DNA of 18,801 nt, taken from positions 5,142 through 23,942 of the forward strand of contig JAADIA010000095.1 in assembly GCA_013151555.1 (NCBI GenBank), given 5' to 3'. The notes under the pieces are model-generated. The model was not told where the DNA came from. It was given only the letters and a program-made list of their open reading frames with translations, and did no database searches. Of this stretch, positions 10,667-18,801 are shown in pieces. Both the position numbers and the translations under genes were made by a program. This DNA is from Nitrospirota bacterium (GTDB lineage: Bacteria > NPL-UPA2 > JAADIA01). Position 1 is the first letter of the stretch; every line of letters starts with the position of its first letter.

Positions 10667-11146
10667 TTAATTAACAAAAGTTGCTTTAACACGTTTCGAT
10701 ATGAGCATATACGGAATCCAGATTAGGCTCGCCGCGAGTGCCTGGAGAAAAGCTTTGAGTGTATTCGGACCAAACATTGGCTCATTCGGCATAATCAATT
10801 TTACCATCCAAGCATCAATAACTATAAATATCAATGAGAAAACCAAAATACCTATATACCATTTAGGGAATCCCCTTCGTTTCGAAAAGAACAGATACAG
10901 CAAATACAATGATACAAGTATGAGCCCGGTATTTATGACAATTTCCGATAGCAGTATTGGCGCCCAAAGCGGGCTATACGCTTCGTAGCCAGGGGTGGTT
11001 AATGCCTCCCAGATTCCCCCTGAAAAAATTGGTGGAAATGTTTTCAATAATAGAGCGCCAAGCCGCAATGGCGTTATAACTATGCCAATACCAACCAGAA
11101 TCAACCACCCGCCCAAACCTTCAAGGTTCTTGTCTTCTTGTTTCAT
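10667..11146 (-). CDS. DUF2569-like four-helix membrane protein
   Basis: This 159-residue predicted inner-membrane protein has four hydrophobic segments and the N-terminal signature LGGWLILVGIGIVITPLRLG of DUF2569 proteins. The C-terminus is SKRVKATFVN, also common in the family. Function is unknown. I prefer the ATG at 11146; an in-frame GTG at 11170 would add eight residues. The start lies 16 nt beyond the GTTAGGC core of the attC-like site at 11162-11217, as expected for the first gene of a captured cassette. No attC-like repeat is recognisable after its stop, so it may be the last cassette or the flank of the array. Confidence 0.75.
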   Translation of the reverse strand: MKQEDKNLEGLGGWLILVGIGIVITPLRLGALLLKTFPPIFSGGIWEALTTPGYEAYSPLWAPILLSEIVINTGLILVSLYLLYLFFSKRRGFPKWYIGILVFSLIFIVIDAWMVKLIMPNEPMFGPNTLKAFLQALAASLIWIPYMLISKRVKATFVN

Positions 11147-11161
11147 ATTCCTTTTACCCTT

Positions 11162-11217
11162 GCCTAACACTAAAGCTCAGCGACGCGGCTCATCCGCATT
11201 CGCTAGAGCGCCTGGTT
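11162..11217 (-). other. attC-like recombination site (site A)
   Basis: On the plus strand GCTCAGCG (11175-11182) pairs with CGCT-A-GAGC (11201-11209), an 8-bp stem with a single bulged base at 11205. Inside it a second stem, GCGG/CCGC (11185-11188 and 11194-11197), is offset by unpaired AC and ATT. The minus-strand end is GTTAGGC (11168-11162), a perfect GTTRRRY core site, and the opposite end keeps AAC. Bulged L arms, an unpaired central spacer, a variable stem and a GTTRRRY core are the attC architecture of integron cassettes. The outer 7-mer on the gene side has decayed. Confidence 0.65.
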
Positions 11218-11581
11218 CTACAACCACTTGTTTACGCTGAGCCGGAGTTTTGTTTTTTATATATGCTTTATTTAGTTTTTTGGTGACAGCTGCAAAACGC
11301 CATCCCCCCAGAAGCCCCAAACAGAAACCAAGAACAAGCAGGATGGCTCCTAAAATACGAAGGTATCCCTCGTCCGGGAAAATCTTAATAAGAGTTCCAC
11401 CGGCAGCTGAAAATGTAATTGCAGTGCGTAAGTATGCTAAAAAAGTCCGTTCATTCGCAAGTCTTGTCCTGTCTTGTGCTAAGTAATCGCGAAGAATCAT
11501 TTCTGATTGATCAAATTTAGAATAAGGCATTGTGTTTTTCTTCCTTGTAGAATAACCTCCTAACGCATTTTCCTCTCTCAT
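11177..11581 (-). CDS. DUF202 membrane protein
   Basis: This 134-residue protein belongs to DUF202. It has the signature RDYLAQDRTRLANERTFLAYLRTA followed by two membrane helices in the second half. Function is unknown for the family. Two starts are plausible. ATG 11581 overlaps the sulfatase stop as ATGA and has AAGGA six bases upstream. ATG 11530 has AAGGAAG about ten bases upstream and would give a more typical length of 117 residues. The last dozen residues (GALANADEPRR) are encoded by the attC-like site A, so the TGA stop lies inside the recombination site and the protein tail is cassette-derived. It is translationally coupled to the sulfatase. Confidence 0.85.
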   Translation of the reverse strand: MREENALGGYSTRKKNTMPYSKFDQSEMILRDYLAQDRTRLANERTFLAYLRTAITFSAAGGTLIKIFPDEGYLRILGAILLVLGFCLGLLGGWRFAAVTKKLNKAYIKNKTPAQRKQVVVEPGALANADEPRR

Positions 11582-13046: not shown

Positions 13047-13520
13047 CTAATCTCTTTTCAGCCAGGTTTTAAATATGCCCGGAGATGTATCCGGAATTTC
13101 AATGGCCCCAACGGTGTTTCTGTAAAACTCAAAAATACCGGTTGGAATAATAGCGTACCCGTATCCTTTAAGCTTCATGTCCAGCATGCAGGCGAGGAGC
13201 AATGCCTTGCCTGTACCTTTTCCCCGGCATGATTCCTCAACTCCAATTGGCCCGAAGAAACCAAGGGCTGTTGCATCGTAGCAAGCAAACCCGATGACTT
13301 TTGTGTCCTTGATCGCAACAAAAAAGGTCCTCGGTGTATTCGATATCGCTATGTCAGATTCACTTGCCCAAGCATCGGAGAAATTCTCTCTCACCCAATC
13401 AATGATGAGATGCTTTTCCGGTCCTATTGGTTTGCGTATCGTGACGCCGATGCTCTCCTGGTCTGCAAGAAAACTCCAGTCATCCTTTAGTTCATACAAT
13501 TTGACAAGCATATCCGACAT
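13047..13520 (-). CDS. GNAT-family N-acetyltransferase
   Basis: This 157-residue single-domain acyltransferase has the GNAT motif A, FGPIGVEESCRGKGTGKALLL, in which RGKGTG (99-104) binds acetyl-CoA pyrophosphate. A beta-bulge strand TFFVAIKDTKVIGFACYDA precedes it, and GIFEFYRNTVGAIEI near the C-terminus is the usual last motif. The acceptor substrate is unknown. ATG 13520 starts MSDMLVK, about 20 nt from the core-like end of site B, so the spacing fits a cassette. GNAT genes are frequent cargo of integron cassettes. No linked gene suggests a substrate. Confidence 0.88.
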   Translation of the reverse strand: MSDMLVKLYELKDDWSFLADQESIGVTIRKPIGPEKHLIIDWVRENFSDAWASESDIAISNTPRTFFVAIKDTKVIGFACYDATALGFFGPIGVEESCRGKGTGKALLLACMLDMKLKGYGYAIIPTGIFEFYRNTVGAIEIPDTSPGIFKTWLKRD

Positions 13521-13535
13521 AAGTCATTTCCTGAA

Positions 13536-13599
13536 ATATAATGACCAAGTGCAGCAACTGGAACCAGTGCCGGCGGTCACAGTTCGCTGCCTTGATTTG
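13536..13599 (-). other. attC-like recombination site (site B)
   Basis: The plus strand begins ATATAATGACCAAG and ends AGTTCGCTGCCTTGATTTG. The arms pair as CAAG-(T)-G-CAGC-AAC with GTT-(C)-GCTG-C-CTTG, about 12 bp with single-base bulges. Between them a variable stem contains AACTGGAACCAGT. The first 23 bases match site D at 19 positions. It begins three bases after the toxin stop and ends about 20 bases before the GNAT start. The core is ATTATAT rather than GTTRRRY, so recombination activity is uncertain. Confidence 0.55.
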
Positions 13600-13601
13600 A
13601 C

Positions 13602-13868
13602 TCACTCATAATGAGCCCACATACGAATTACCTTTACTTTTTTGATGTCTATCAGGACTTGATATACCAGACGATGTTGAATGTTAATACGACGGGAGTA
13701 AGTTCCAGACAGGTCCCCAACCAATTTCTCGAACGGCGGGGGCTGTTGGAATGGGTCCTTCCTCAGAATTTCTAACAAAACCTCAGCCTTTGGACGAAGC
13801 CCCGAGGCTAAAAGCTTTTTAGCATCTTTTTGTACTTGCTTTGTAAAGACCAGTTGCCAACTCACCAC
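13602..13868 (-). CDS. yoeB: Txe/YoeB-family toxin, ribosome-dependent mRNA endonuclease
   Basis: This 88-residue RelE-superfamily toxin resembles YoeB/Txe. The E. coli catalytic residues have counterparts here: Glu47 in PPPFEKLVGDL, Arg66 in IQHRLVY, and the C-terminal pair His86-Tyr87 in MWAHYE. SRRINIQHRLVYQV is the best family signature. YoeB enzymes cut mRNA at the ribosomal A site when free of antitoxin. The GTG start at 13868 overlaps the antitoxin stop, so the two are translationally coupled, antitoxin first. All active-site residues are intact, so it is probably functional. Toxin-antitoxin pairs are common stabilising cargo in cassette arrays. Confidence 0.93.
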   Translation of the reverse strand: MVSWQLVFTKQVQKDAKKLLASGLRPKAEVLLEILRKDPFQQPPPFEKLVGDLSGTYSRRINIQHRLVYQVLIDIKKVKVIRMWAHYE

Positions 13869-14104
13869 TTTAAATCCGGGCTACATTTCTCTACAGGAGT
13901 GTCAAGTCCCTTGCGGATAGACTCTCGCATTCCCGGAATCGATAGCAGATAAAGAGTTTCTTGAATTGCTCGCCAATCTTCCTCAGCGATAAGGACAGCA
14001 TTAGCCCTCTTGCCTGTAATTTGGATGGGGTGGTGAGATGAAGCAGCTTCATCCAGTAGCTTGTAGAGTTTCGCCCTTGCTTCACTGGCAGTTAATGTTA
14101 TCAT
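13862..14104 (-). CDS. yefM: Phd/YefM-family antitoxin
   Basis: This 80-residue antitoxin of the Phd/YefM fold starts MITLTASEARAKLYKLLDEA, the family's DNA-binding N-terminus, and continues with HPIQITGKRANAVLIAEEDW. The C-terminal third (about residues 56-80) is the variable toxin-neutralising segment. I choose ATG 14104 because GAGGTG ends six bases upstream; starts at 14110 and 14134 are in frame, but 14110 abuts the site and 14134 lies in the operator. It precedes and overlaps the YoeB-like toxin gene. A palindrome over its promoter suggests self-repression by the complex. Confidence 0.92.
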   Translation of the reverse strand: MITLTASEARAKLYKLLDEAASSHHPIQITGKRANAVLIAEEDWRAIQETLYLLSIPGMRESIRKGLDTPVEKCSPDLKW

Positions 14105-14122
14105 ATTCATCACCTCTATCAA

Positions 14123-14153
14123 ATACCGTACCATATTGCGTACGTATTGTCAA
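14123..14153 (-). promoter_or_regulatory. Toxin-antitoxin promoter with overlapping operator palindrome
   Basis: On the minus strand TTGACA (14153-14148) is a perfect -35 box, and TACGGT (14130-14125) lies 17 bp further as a weak -10 box. The inverted repeat ATACCGTAC (14123-14131) and GTACGTAT (14140-14147), with an 8-nt spacer, covers the spacer and -10 box. GTAC-centred palindromes at this place are how YefM-YoeB complexes repress their own operon. Confidence 0.6.
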
Positions 14154-14197: not shown

Positions 14198-14215
14198 GTG
14201 CCCCCGTTCCCTCAT
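14198..14215 (-). repeat. GTG-CCCCGTTC-CTCAT motif, copy 1
   Basis: The plus-strand 18-mer GTGCCCCCGTTCCCTCAT ends six bases before the stop of the secreted-protein gene and matches 16 of 18 bases of a second copy at 16950-16967. GGGGAC/GTCCCC-type cores resemble REP elements served by RAYT transposases. The CGTTC-CTCA part also resembles one arm of site D, so it could instead be a worn attC arm. The rest of 14154-14221 holds nothing clear. Confidence 0.4.
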
Positions 14216-14221
14216 ATCGAT

Positions 14222-15058
14222 TCAGCTTTCCCCGGCAACCTTCTTGGAAACATATCCTCCGATCCAGTCGATTTTCCACTCATCGCCCATACGGACGAAA
14301 TAAATTTTCCAAACTTGTTTCCCACGCTTAGCTTTCAGGACCAATTTTCCATTCTTAAGGTACACTGATTCCGGTTCCAGCTTGAGAAAATCTTTCCTGC
14401 TCCACCAGAACAGCGCGTACGTGGGGTGGGACCGATTCATCGCTTGTGCGAACCACTCTAAGCCAGCCGGGAATTCTGCCTCCTGGTAGTCCTTGGTGAA
14501 CATCGCCCACACATCTTCGTATCTTTTTTCTCTAATATATCGCTGGAGATCACGGAACGTTTTCATAACGATATCGGCTCTCGCTCCGGAGATCGGGGTA
14601 GACAGCTTGCCAACATCTCGGCGTTCCAGATCTCTAGAGAGATACTTCTTCTCTCCAAAATAACCTTTGTAATCGTACTGGGCCTGGGATTCCGGGTTAT
14701 AGAATCGCAGTCTCACCCAAGTCTTATCTGTGATCGGTCCCTGAATTTTGAAAACGAACCGAACCCATTTTGTTTCGTTAGCCCTGAGGGTTCTAAAAAA
14801 CACTGCTCCCCAACCCCTGCCATGTCTAAGGTACTTGGGAGAGCGAGTCTGTATATGAATGCCAAAGACCTGATCAAGTCCCGTGCCATTCTGAACTTTT
14901 ACCTGGACCACGTTTTTTCCTCGTGCAATAGGTTCGAATTTCACTTCCAATACCTTTACAGCTGTTGCTCCCGGTTCATCTGCTGCTGCAGTCTCCACTG
15001 CTGCGGCAAACCAAGCAACGATATAGACCATCGACAATAGGATAACGAGCTTGCGCAT
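14222..15058 (-). CDS. Secreted protein of unknown function
   Basis: This 278-residue protein has a clear Sec signal peptide (hydrophobic residues 4-20, cleavage probably near AAA-DEP, residue 26). An N-terminal half rich in beta strands (about 35-125, with KVLEVKFEPIARGKNVVQVKV) is followed by a helix-rich segment, FRDLQRYIREKRYEDVWAMFTKDYQ (about 167-191). The C-terminal strands, about 225-270, include LVLKAKRGKQVWKIYFVRMG and EWKIDWIGGY. The second half resembles the general shape of NTF2-like/SnoaL-type lumazine-fold domains, which is only an impression. No catalytic motif is evident. A GGAGGAGGG site precedes ATG 15058. A REP-like motif lies after the stop and attC-like site C before the start. 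Confidence 0.75.
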   Translation of the reverse strand: MRKLVILLSMVYIVAWFAAAVETAAADEPGATAVKVLEVKFEPIARGKNVVQVKVQNGTGLDQVFGIHIQTRSPKYLRHGRGWGAVFFRTLRANETKWVRFVFKIQGPITDKTWVRLRFYNPESQAQYDYKGYFGEKKYLSRDLERRDVGKLSTPISGARADIVMKTFRDLQRYIREKRYEDVWAMFTKDYQEAEFPAGLEWFAQAMNRSHPTYALFWWSRKDFLKLEPESVYLKNGKLVLKAKRGKQVWKIYFVRMGDEWKIDWIGGYVSKKVAGES

Positions 15059-15085
15059 ACCCTCCTCCCTTCTGCCAATTCTACT

Positions 15086-15138
15086 GGCTAATCGTCCAGC
15101 TCAGAGACAGCAGTACCAATTCGCTGTAGCGCCTGGTT
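15086..15138 (-). other. attC-like recombination site (site C)
   Basis: The plus strand has AGCTCAGAGAC (15098-15108) and ATTCGCTGTAGCGCCTGGTT (15119-15138). The second arm matches site A at 18 of 20 bases and the first at 9 of 11, while the centre differs. The inner arms pair as GCTCAG and CTG-T-AGC with one bulged base. The core side reads GATTAGCC on the minus strand, close to GTTRRRY. The secreted-protein start is 27 nt beyond the core end, and the preceding membrane-protein stop lies eight bases before the outer arm. Confidence 0.6.
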
Positions 15139-15146
15139 TGCTTTCA

Positions 15147-15575
15147 TTATTTAAATTGCTTCTTAACATTGGGAAGCCTCAAAAAGTAAATTGAACAAGA
15201 TATGCCGATTGCAAATAATATGACAATCAAGAAGATTAATATATCCGCTCCCCCAGAGATTAGAAGAATCGTTGCAGGTAAAATCCCTGCTATTAGAACA
15301 AGTAAAAGGTATAAGTATAATGCTATTAAACTTATCACTCTGCCAACCCTTTTTCTTTTTAAAACAAGAATTCCTCCCGTTATAAGACTAATGAACAATG
15401 GTAATAGCAATATATTAATGATAAATCCATGGACATCACCCCCACGCTTATTGTGCAACAGCCATACTAAGGAATCCATTATCATATATGTGATATATGT
15501 GCCTGTAATAATCTCAAACCAACCTACAATGGTTACCCCGATGGTTACCCCGATGGACGGTTTTCTTTCCATCAT
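15147..15575 (-). CDS. Small four-helix membrane protein of unknown function
   Basis: This 142-residue protein has four hydrophobic segments, at about residues 9-34, 49-71, 79-104 and 109-131, with basic loops (KRKRVGR and a lysine-rich C-terminus). No family is recognised with certainty. Starts at 15575 and 15572 are adjacent ATGs; GGAG fits the second better. A 12-bp tandem duplication, ATGGTTACCCCG on the plus strand at 15529-15552, encodes the repeated GVTI at residues 9-16 and looks recent. It is flanked by attC-like sites D before and C after, so it looks like a single-gene cassette. Confidence 0.7.
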   Translation of the reverse strand: MMERKPSIGVTIGVTIVGWFEIITGTYITYMIMDSLVWLLHNKRGGDVHGFIINILLLPLFISLITGGILVLKRKRVGRVISLIALYLYLLLVLIAGILPATILLISGGADILIFLIVILFAIGISCSIYFLRLPNVKKQFK

Positions 15576-15593
15576 TGCTCCATTTTGATTTTC

Positions 15594-15643
15594 ATATAAT
15601 GTCCAAGCTCAGCGACGGCGATAGCCGTTCGCTCACTGATTTG
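15594..15643 (-). other. attC-like recombination site (site D)
   Basis: On the plus strand AGCGACGGC (15611-15619) pairs with GCCGT-T-CGCT (15624-15633), a 9-bp stem with one bulged T and a GATA loop. The flank ATATAATGTCCAAGCTCAGC matches site B, and CTCAGCGAC also matches site A. The core side is ATTATAT on the minus strand. It lies between the GNAT stop (38 nt) and the membrane-protein start (19 nt). Confidence 0.55.
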
Positions 15644-15680
15644 TCAATAATAAAGATTGTGACCCCCTCAGCCCTACATA

Positions 15681-16136
15681 TTATTTGTAAAATTTTTCCA
15701 TATAAAATATTTCTATATTTCCGCATTCATATTGGTCTGTCTTATATATATTATATCCCAATTTTTGATAGAGATGTATGTTTTTATCGCTTTTAGAGCC
15801 AACAAAAAGTTCATAGCGATTTGGACTATAAAGTTTTTCAATCTCCCGCATAAGAGATGTTCCGATTCCTTGATTTTGCATATCGGGATGTACGGCTAAT
15901 CTCCCCACATAACATGTCCCATTTTTTTCGTAGGCACGCACAGTGCCGATAATTTTACCTTCAGAAACAGCTTTCAGAAATATATGACTTTTGAATTGTT
16001 CTTTTATTTCATCAACAGTCTGCCTAAGTGGTGGTATATCATAATTATTATAGCGTTCGGATTCGCTTCTATAGGCTAACTTTTGTAAGGTTAAAATTTC
16101 TTCGGCATCGTCAATTATTGCTTGTAAAATTTCCAT
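15681..16136 (-). CDS. GNAT-family N-acetyltransferase
   Basis: This 151-residue acetyltransferase has GNAT motif A, VGRLAVHPDMQNQGIGTSLM, with the acetyl-CoA loop QNQGIG at 87-92. It also has the strand ELFVGSKSDKNIHLYQKLGYN, the usual C-terminal motif with a conserved Tyr. It closely fits the ordinary single-domain GNAT size. The substrate is unknown. It is not similar to the GNAT encoded at 13047-13520 beyond the fold. Codon use is more A/T-rich than in the left half of the window, consistent with acquisition. It lies between a truncated DUF2007 gene and attC-like site D. Confidence 0.9.
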   Translation of the reverse strand: MEILQAIIDDAEEILTLQKLAYRSESERYNNYDIPPLRQTVDEIKEQFKSHIFLKAVSEGKIIGTVRAYEKNGTCYVGRLAVHPDMQNQGIGTSLMREIEKLYSPNRYELFVGSKSDKNIHLYQKLGYNIYKTDQYECGNIEIFYMEKFYK

Positions 16137-16229: not shown

Positions 16230-16334
16230 CTAAAAATGATCATTATGTACAAAATAAGGAATGTTGGCTCCCTCTAGAATACTTTTAATGATAGCAAGTT
16301 CAACTTCATTTTTTGGGGAATATAAATTAATCAT
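16230..16334 (-). pseudogene. Truncated DUF2007-family gene, N-terminal half only
   Basis: A 34-codon minus-strand ORF starts at ATG 16334. It encodes MINLYSPKNEVELAIIKSIL, then EGANIPYFVHNDHF and a TAG at 16232-16230. The pattern LYSxxNExELxxIKxxLE and IPxFVxNDHF is the first half of a DUF2007 domain, small proteins of about 70 residues. The conserved continuation (usually G plus the second half) is absent; the next 90 nt do not restore it in any frame I checked. The start is 17 nt from the GTTATAC core of site F, so this is a decayed or 3'-deleted cassette. ATTAGAT near 16162 may mark the joined boundary. Confidence 0.65.
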
Positions 16335-16350
16335 CTTTTATTTAATTTTT

Positions 16351-16422
16351 GTATAACGATAGAAATGAGCGGCTGAGAAAATGCGTAACGGTTTCTCAGT
16401 TCGTTCCATTCATTTGTTGGTC
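16351..16422 (-). other. attC-like recombination site (site F)
   Basis: On the plus strand GTATAAC (16351-16357) and GTTGGTC (16416-16422) are opposed outer 7-mers, each one base from RYYYAAC/GTTRRRY. AAATGA (16363-16368) pairs with TCATTT (16410-16415). CTGAGAAA (16373-16380) pairs perfectly with TTTCTCAG (16392-16399) around an 11-nt loop. This is the nested order expected for attC. The TGA stop of the FtsH-domain gene (16398-16396) lies within the inner stem. Confidence 0.65.
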
Positions 16423-16842
16423 GCTTCTTTGGTTTTTTAGTACTTCATTCAGTTTCATGATGATAACAATCAATAGAATGAAAAATATAAGGGGTTTTAC
16501 CAGAAAGATAAGTTTAGTGAGCGTTCGCATTAGGGGACGGCGTTCCGTCACATCTCGCATTGAAACAGTCACGTCGTGCTCTCTCAGAAAGCGGGTAAGA
16601 AGCGGGTCGTTAGCAGAAGCGATTGGGGTGTACGAGCGAAAAGTGCTTGTCGTGTTACCGACCGCGAGCGTTCCGCTGATTGAGGCACGCTTGTCAAGAG
16701 TCACTGACTTAATCTTTCCTCCCTCCACTTGACGAATGAATTCATTGTAAGTTAGATGCCGAGAACCGGCGGCAAACGACACACTGACAACGCCAATAAT
16801 CATAACGCTAATAATTATAAGAGCTACTACGATCGTTTTCAT
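16396..16842 (-). CDS. Stand-alone FtsH extracytoplasmic domain protein
   Basis: This 148-residue membrane protein corresponds to only the first part of the FtsH protease. It has a membrane helix (about 3-24), an FtsH_ext-like domain (28-105) with LTYNEFIRQVEGGKIKSVTL and ANDPLLTRFLREHDVTVSM, a second helix (109-130) and an 18-residue cytoplasmic tail. Full FtsH continues with an AAA ATPase and a zinc protease; neither is present. The ORF stops inside the attC-like site F, so this is a complete captured ORF and not obviously a broken gene end. FtsH works as a hexamer whose periplasmic domains contact each other and HflKC. A lone domain could join or disturb those assemblies, which is inference. 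The start has GGAGAG upstream. Confidence 0.8.
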   Translation of the reverse strand: MKTIVVALIIISVMIIGVVSVSFAAGSRHLTYNEFIRQVEGGKIKSVTLDKRASISGTLAVGNTTSTFRSYTPIASANDPLLTRFLREHDVTVSMRDVTERRPLMRTLTKLIFLVKPLIFFILLIVIIMKLNEVLKNQRSDQQMNGTN

Positions 16843-16995: not shown

Positions 16996-17937
16996 CTATC
17001 TTGGCACCCCCGAATATGGCTGCACATAAGATCTGAGGACTGTTTTTCCCTTGATTTTAGTCCATCGGTTAAAAGCAATATTCTTTCCATCAGGAGACAA
17101 AAGGGCACGAATGATGGTACTATCCGCAATTGCTTGAACCGGTTCTCCCCCTTTAACTGGCACAGCCCAGACCCCTCTACTCTTACCACCGCCTGTGCCA
17201 AACCTGGTAAAGATGATAGTTTTCCCATCAGGAGACCAACAGGGATAAGCAGCATTCATTCCAAAGGTAATCTGCTTCGGTTGGCTACTCCCATCACTTG
17301 GTACTGTCCAAATGTCCATATCTGTCTTGCCTGGAGTCCGTGAGGTAAAAGCGATGGTCTTTCCATCTGGAGACCATCTTGGATATCTATCCTTTTTAGG
17401 ACTGATAGTCAGTCTTCTCGGTGAACCACCTGGTATTGGCAGTACAAATATTTCCAGGTTGGGTTTTTTCCCGTCCTCCGAAACCATAGCTTCACAGGCA
17501 ATCTCTTTCCCATCCGGGGACCAATCGAGCATAGAGATATACGGGAATGGGGTAGGAACTTTTGTTACCATTCGCCCCTCTGGTGACACTATCCAAATAG
17601 CCATAGTATCGTCCTTTGGACTAATAGCAGAAAAGGCTATCTTATCACCAACTGGCGACCAGGACCCCCACATAAATATTTTAGAATCTATTTTTGCGCC
17701 GGAGATTACCAATGCAGCTTTCCCGTCAGCAAGCGATACCGTCCAGAGACTCTTGGCACCATCTTTGTCCGACTCGATGAGAACCTTGGTCCCACCTGGA
17801 GACCAACCATAAATCGTAGATTTGCCGCTTTCCAAGCCTGCACCAAGTTCCATCGTTGCACCTTCGCTAATACTTCTACTTCCAAGTATCACAAGAAAAG
17901 ATAATAGAACAACATAATTTTTTCTCCATTTGCTCAT
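16996..17937 (-). CDS. Secreted TolB-like beta-propeller protein
   Basis: This 313-residue protein has a signal peptide (hydrophobic residues 8-19, cleavage probably near residue 27) and a six-bladed TolB/PD40-type propeller. Blade signatures recur about every 42-47 residues: GWSPGGTKVLI, SWSPVGDKIAF, DWSPDGKEIAC, RWSPDGKTIAF, CWSPDGKTIIF and LSPDGKNIAF. Between them are xIWTVxxxGG-type strands. Such propellers bind proteins or sugars in the periplasm. This one lacks the N-terminal domain of true TolB, so it is not a TolB orthologue by architecture. A strong GGAGGAGG site lies before ATG 17937. It is a large product for a single-gene cassette. Confidence 0.88.
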   Translation of the reverse strand: MSKWRKNYVVLLSFLVILGSRSISEGATMELGAGLESGKSTIYGWSPGGTKVLIESDKDGAKSLWTVSLADGKAALVISGAKIDSKIFMWGSWSPVGDKIAFSAISPKDDTMAIWIVSPEGRMVTKVPTPFPYISMLDWSPDGKEIACEAMVSEDGKKPNLEIFVLPIPGGSPRRLTISPKKDRYPRWSPDGKTIAFTSRTPGKTDMDIWTVPSDGSSQPKQITFGMNAAYPCWSPDGKTIIFTRFGTGGGKSRGVWAVPVKGGEPVQAIADSTIIRALLSPDGKNIAFNRWTKIKGKTVLRSYVQPYSGVPR

Positions 17938-18433: not shown

Positions 18434-18783
18434 CTATGTTTTTTTATTTGCAAGAATCTCTACCTTCTCCTCAATCTGCTGAAGAATATCTTCTGAAATT
18501 TCTTCTTTTTTCAAAATCCCGGATTTTTCAAAATCCCGGACTCTAATCCTATTGCAACTATCATGTCCGCTTTAAAATAATTGTGTTTCTTCCACAACTC
18601 CCGAGATGGTCCATCATGAAACTTATGTATATATTCATTTATCTCAAAACAATCTATCTTTTTCTCCCTCCATTCATCAAACCTCTTTGCCAATTCCTCT
18701 ACATACTGATCAAGCTCTCTCTTCCATACCAACGTGGCAAGTTCTTTCAATTTTTTTCTTATTTCTTTATTATATTTTTTCAT
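18434..18783 (-). pseudogene. 110-residue gene frameshifted by a 17-bp tandem duplication
   Basis: ATG 18783 opens a frame that now stops at 18513-18511 after 90 residues (ending ILKNPGF). Removing one copy of the 17-bp duplication at 18507-18540 restores a frame that runs on as ILKKEEISEDILQQIEEKVE to a TAG at 18436-18434, giving exactly 111 codons. The protein is charged and helical, with FHDGPSRELWKKHNYFKADM at about residues 55-74, and no family is recognised. GTTAGCA lies 11 nt upstream of the ATG, and its inverse TGCTAAC lies just after the restored stop. That is the arrangement of an integron cassette. The 90-residue form may still be made. Confidence 0.6.
18507..18540. repeat. 17-bp perfect tandem duplication
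   Basis: TTTTTCAAAATCCCGGA occurs twice in direct succession (18507-18523 and 18524-18540). Its length is not a multiple of three, so it shifts the reading frame of the gene on the minus strand. The copies are identical, which suggests a recent slip, possible phase variation or an assembly artefact. Confidence 0.9.
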
Positions 18784-18793
18784 ATTTATTCTC

Positions 18794-18801
18794 TGCTAAC
18801 G
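18794..18801 (-). other. Possible attC core site at the window edge
   Basis: The minus strand reads CGTTAGCA at the right edge, close to the GTTRRRY core. It lies 11 nt before the start of the gene at 18783 and is the exact inverse of TGCTAAC after that gene (18432-18426). The rest of the site would lie outside the window. Confidence 0.4.

Follow-up and report, generated by a model that had tools for sequence, protein, structure and literature searches.

The question raised by this locus is what a short protein corresponding to the N-terminal part of FtsH is doing among cassette-like genes, where FtsH itself is a nearly universal and often essential protease. The whole stretch of DNA analysed here, the window (18,801 nucleotides), forms the end of contig C67 in the genome (G000) of an uncultured bacterium, an assembly of 1.81 Mb that is divided into 99 contigs and is 93.7% complete. 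Small co-oriented genes were found on its (-) strand, with typical cassette cargo including DUF202. The features are listed below in the direction of transcription, with their basis in brackets.

16996..17937 (-): TolB-like PD40 beta-propeller protein lying upstream of FtsH_ext; no attC was detected separating the two genes (profile search)
16396..16842 (-): stand-alone FtsH_ext protein, 148 aa (Pfam, AlphaFold2 model, Foldseek)
16349..16417 (-): attC-like site of the FtsH_ext cassette, overlapping the stop codon, of a subtype in common with contig C40 (covariance model; similarity to C40)
16240..16344 (-): truncated DUF2007 ORF, 34 aa, directly after the FtsH_ext attC-like site and ending in TAG (sequence; Pfam PF09413, 32.3 bits)
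15681..16136 (-): GNAT acetyltransferase cassette (Pfam)
15592..15648 (-): attC-like site (covariance models)
15147..15575 (-): 142-aa membrane protein of no family (profile search)
15084..15141 (-): attC-like site (covariance models)
14222..15058 (-): 278-aa exported protein of no family (profile search)
13602..14134 (-): Phd/YefM antitoxin and YoeB-like toxin pair (profile search)
13534..13604 (-): attC-like site (covariance models)
13047..13520 (-): GNAT acetyltransferase (profile search)
11160..11220 (-): attC-like site with canonical GTTAGGC (covariance models)
10667..11170 (-): DUF2569 membrane protein, after the attC-like site at 11160..11220 (Pfam)

The ATG of the 16396-16842 frame is preceded by a Shine-Dalgarno-like GGAGAG. 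Residues 7-94 of its product were found to match the Pfam family FtsH_ext (PF06480) with an E-value of 7.9e-12 and 45.7 bits against a cut-off of 25.5. This was the only Pfam family above its cut-off in the 148-aa protein, where no match to AAA or Peptidase_M41 was observed. The chain stops after the second transmembrane helix (TM2) and contains neither the AAA module nor the M41 peptidase by which an FtsH protease is recognised. In agreement with this, residues 7-134 align only to the N-terminal 133 positions of the NCBIfam model FtsH_fam, and the hydropathy profile shows two hydrophobic helices at residues 3-21 and 111-129. The first-pass annotation, which had described FtsH-type membrane helices and an FtsH_ext domain lacking ATPase and protease, is thereby confirmed, and the chance it allowed for, that an FtsH_ext profile would not match at all, did not materialise.

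The fold leads to the same family. An AlphaFold2 model computed from a two-row alignment has a helix, the N-domain and a long helix in this order, with pLDDT values of 82-92 across residues 31-90. When the model was searched with Foldseek, the top PDB matches were FtsH chains and isolated FtsH N-domains, as exemplified by 4v0b (TM-score 0.85 by target length, rmsd 2.3), 4m8a (0.80-0.82) and 2muy (0.69). A single-sequence search of the PDB missed FtsH, which was recovered by the fold search. The gene product is a diverged stand-alone N-terminal FtsH module made up of TM1 or a signal peptide (residues 2-24), the N-domain (28-96), and TM2 with a short basic tail (103-146). The first of these segments is to be read with caution since it resembles a signal peptide and should not be presumed to be an FtsH-like TM1. 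The N-termini finish with AxA-like motifs (SFA/A here and AIA/A in a relative from contig C94), so that TM1 of the stand-alone proteins may in fact be cut off as a signal peptide, and the membrane ring would then be altered.

The hairpins between the genes of the window are alike in their stem (AGCGA), which carries an extrahelical base, and in their [A/G]TTA core. The array comprises at least five attC-like sites, of which two or more would already count as a cluster, and several of their core sites are degenerate. A first covariance model was built from five window sites, the FtsH_ext site among them, and gave three independent matches elsewhere in the genome. Contig C40 has two of them, which lie 1.2 kb apart and flank a 178-aa ORF, and the other is close to the end of contig C21. 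When the FtsH_ext site was left out of the training set, a second model recovered the remaining sites as well as a third site on C40. The attC-like array on C40 (L106:3851-5162), the second one in this genome, was also noticed to encode small exported proteins of no known family.

The TGA stop codon of the FtsH_ext gene (16396-16398) is contained in the 5' arm of a hairpin of 8 bp, whose arms span 16392-16399 and 16373-16380. After this hairpin comes an R'-like core site, GTTATAC (16351-16357). The attC-like site as a whole scored 42.9 bits with the model whose training set includes it and only 11.5 bits with the model trained without it, the weakest of the five window sites. It was also observed to be the best match in the entire window to the third C40 site, with 38 of 59 positions identical and a score of 14, where 2000 shuffles averaged -15 (sd 4.3) and reached at most 0. 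The C40 site ends a putative cassette of its own. As this match is far above the shuffles, the stop codon of the FtsH_ext gene lies within an attC-like element, as had been suggested from its stem. The attC reading is supported at the level of the array by the three independent matches of the covariance model, and for the FtsH_ext site taken alone its support is weaker.

No integron integrase (intI) was found over the cut-off in the 93.7% complete MAG, where the best match, on contig C33, looks XerC/D-like. The array is therefore of the CALIN type, in which attC-like sites occur without an integrase. CALIN arrays form most archaeal arrays and are common in bacterial genomes (PMC9668308). The window shares with them tandem attC-like sites, small co-oriented genes, typical cargo and the lack of intI; it differs in that several core sites are degenerate and that, on the upstream side of the FtsH_ext cassette, neither covariance model found a boundary attC between 16420 and the contig end at 18801. 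Within this CALIN-like array, the window ORF is a genuine and unbroken gene for a stand-alone FtsH N-domain protein. Two contigs, those of the window and C21, end in or near attC-like sites, the window contig with CGTTAGC at 18801, and the assembly therefore seems to break within cassette arrays.

Two further FtsH_ext-only proteins without AAA were found, of the kind that the first-pass annotation had proposed to look for. One is encoded in the same genome (C94, 178 aa) and the other in a MAG of another phylum (G098; JAUWYL010000020.1, isolate CSMAG_2709; 142 aa), where its gene sits between a tRNA cluster and thrS. Both are above the Pfam FtsH_ext cut-off. In leave-one-out profiles the left-out proteins scored 82.8, 63.1 and 54.8 bits whereas FtsHs reached at most 41.4, and each outranked all compared FtsH N-termini under the profile of the other two. 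The three also form one clade (97/88) in a tree of 55 N-domains, within which the window and G098 proteins are sisters (98/72) on long branches. A basic-Q-M type motif after TM2, present in 45 of 50 FtsHs, is absent from all three, which have a short tail instead. Membership of the window protein in this stand-alone family is close to certain.

The three proteins form a rare family which none of the libraries searched names separately. Among about 385 mostly overlapping genomes from two samples, stand-alone members were found in G000 and G098 only, and the other FtsH_ext matches in those samples are FtsHs that are either full-length or interrupted by a contig end. Short frames in G035, G046, G007 and G411 were rejected as belonging to the latter class. 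No other member was found within the phylum of G098 itself or in 195 genomes of one further phylum. A wider profile search of genome contigs gave no matches with a two-row alignment and the G098 protein only with a three-row alignment. Stand-alone relatives were likewise absent from phages, IMG/VR, BFVD and PLSDB, where two viral-contig matches are full-length FtsH, and a phage, viral or plasmid origin was rejected on the ground of this absence. The rare and patchy distribution of the three members is compatible with horizontal transfer. Using the covariance model, no attC was found near the C94 and G098 copies. The description of the protein as encoded in a cassette thus holds for the cassette-like location of the window gene and not as a family property, with one of three members in an array.

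The sole M41 gene found in the genome is an ftsH on contig C3, away from the window contig. The N-domain of this host FtsH shares about 20% identity with the window protein and reaches only 20 bits with the FtsH_ext profile. A recent truncation of a neighbouring ftsH lacking homologues, the other outcome that had been considered, is ruled out by this identity and the separate contigs, and homologues do exist. Trees that place the window protein with the host FtsH (p 0.30) or with the C94 protein (p 0.40) were not rejected by the AU test, and descent long ago from an FtsH of the host lineage is therefore possible. The ftsH on C3 (L009:654-2571, (-)) was noticed to be split in the AAA region into two frames of 338 and 296 aa, either by a short deletion or by an assembly error.

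For the role of the protein we tentatively favour modulation of FtsH/HflKC, by analogy with published systems, at a confidence that falls somewhat short of even. The protein would insert like FtsH, with its N-domain periplasmic and its tail cytoplasmic, and would use the hexamer-forming N-domain/TM ring. The stand-alone proteins might then either take up places in the hexamers of the host FtsH, where they would be catalytically inert, or form their own rings which compete for HflK/HflC, and in both cases FtsH proteolysis would be lowered or redirected. Co-assembly with FtsH, which the first-pass annotation had considered, is plausible. This reading is ranked first because of published data on four points together with the host's HflK/HflC genes. 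When the cytosolic part of E. coli FtsH is removed, the remaining TM and periplasmic fragment is still a hexamer (PMC13097134), an FtsH gained by horizontal transfer forms mixed assemblies with the resident FtsH (PMC6629908), HflK touches the FtsH periplasmic domain (PMC12048511), and FtsH activity is set by the linker after TM2 (PMC10850787), which is absent from the window protein. The putative partners in the host are one FtsH and HflK/HflC pairs. Two sets of HflK/HflC-like genes were observed, on C24 and C68, and C24 has an additional Band_7 gene. Counting against modulation are the identity of about 20% to the host FtsH, which makes a compatible hexamer interface an assumption, the chance that TM1 is cleaved as a signal peptide, the absence of gene linkage to ftsH or hflKC, and the size of the family, with only three members. 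The broader proposal is that the FtsH N-modules, lacking any catalytic part, form a mobile family which poisons or retunes the FtsH-HflKC of any cassette recipient, and this we consider distinctly less likely than not.

The divergence from the host FtsH, the loss of the post-TM2 motif, the signal-peptide-like N-terminus and the location of the G098 copy beside thrS and the tRNA cluster, not beside ftsH, would all suit a protein with an independent function. Such a protein would have put the FtsH N-domain fold to a new use, as a homo-oligomer anchored in the membrane that serves for binding or as a scaffold in the periplasm and makes no contact with FtsH. However, the full TM-N-domain-TM module is retained with no extra domain, and we give this explanation a substantial minority chance.

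It is improbable that the gene is a non-functional remnant, that is, a truncated FtsH N-terminus caught by a cassette and drifting. The array does have broken neighbours (the DUF2007 fragment and a 17-bp duplication at 18507-18540) and several degenerate attC core sites, but all three diverged members keep an open frame through TM2 and the short tail as well as N-domain motifs (DPLL), and the window frame is intact with a good ribosome-binding site. Least probable of all, and hardly credible, is the anti-phage or counter-phage device that had been offered as a guard, a decoy for FtsH-acting phage proteins (lambda CIII-like): the gene does lie in a cassette-like position in an array with a toxin-antitoxin pair, but no PADLOC model matched the array proteins tested, which gives no link to defence and led to the rejection of a defence gene, the phage, viral and plasmid matches are full-length FtsHs only, and the other two members lie outside recognised cassettes.

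Compared with known systems, the window protein resembles the FtsH N-terminal periplasmic domain (PF06480; 4v0b, 4m8a, 2muy) in profile, predicted fold and place between two TM helices, and differs from FtsH in having no linker, AAA, M41, RQMQ-type motif after TM2 or Gly-rich linker. The FtsHi pseudoproteases of plants and algae (complexes 8xqw and 8xks) are likewise protease-inactive FtsH relatives that assemble in the membrane, but they keep the AAA motor whereas the window protein has neither motor nor protease. PaFtsH2 of the P. aeruginosa clone C island is likewise a horizontally acquired FtsH relative and hetero-oligomerises with the resident FtsH; it is a full-length active protease on a genomic island, whereas the window protein is an N-module in a cassette array. 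SpoVM and lambda CIII are small proteins that inhibit FtsH or have been proposed to do so, and neither is related in sequence to the window protein. CIII acts on FtsH as an inhibitor while also being its substrate (PMC1838920), and does not copy its N-domain.

A transferable protein made of the FtsH assembly module alone would lend itself to acting as a dominant-negative or an adaptor and would offer a tool for controlling membrane proteolysis. One of the numerous cassette-borne membrane proteins without an assigned role would in this way gain a function open to testing. Judged from its sequences, the family appears to be rare and real and may tune FtsH.

Two minor observations were made in the window. 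A perfect 17-bp tandem duplication at 18507-18540, at the end of the ORF 18511-18783(-), probably frameshifts a longer ORF. Furthermore, the motif ATGAGSGAACGGGGRCAC is repeated on the (-) strand in two intergenic regions, at 14205 and 16950, and these copies are perhaps remnants of a REP-like element.
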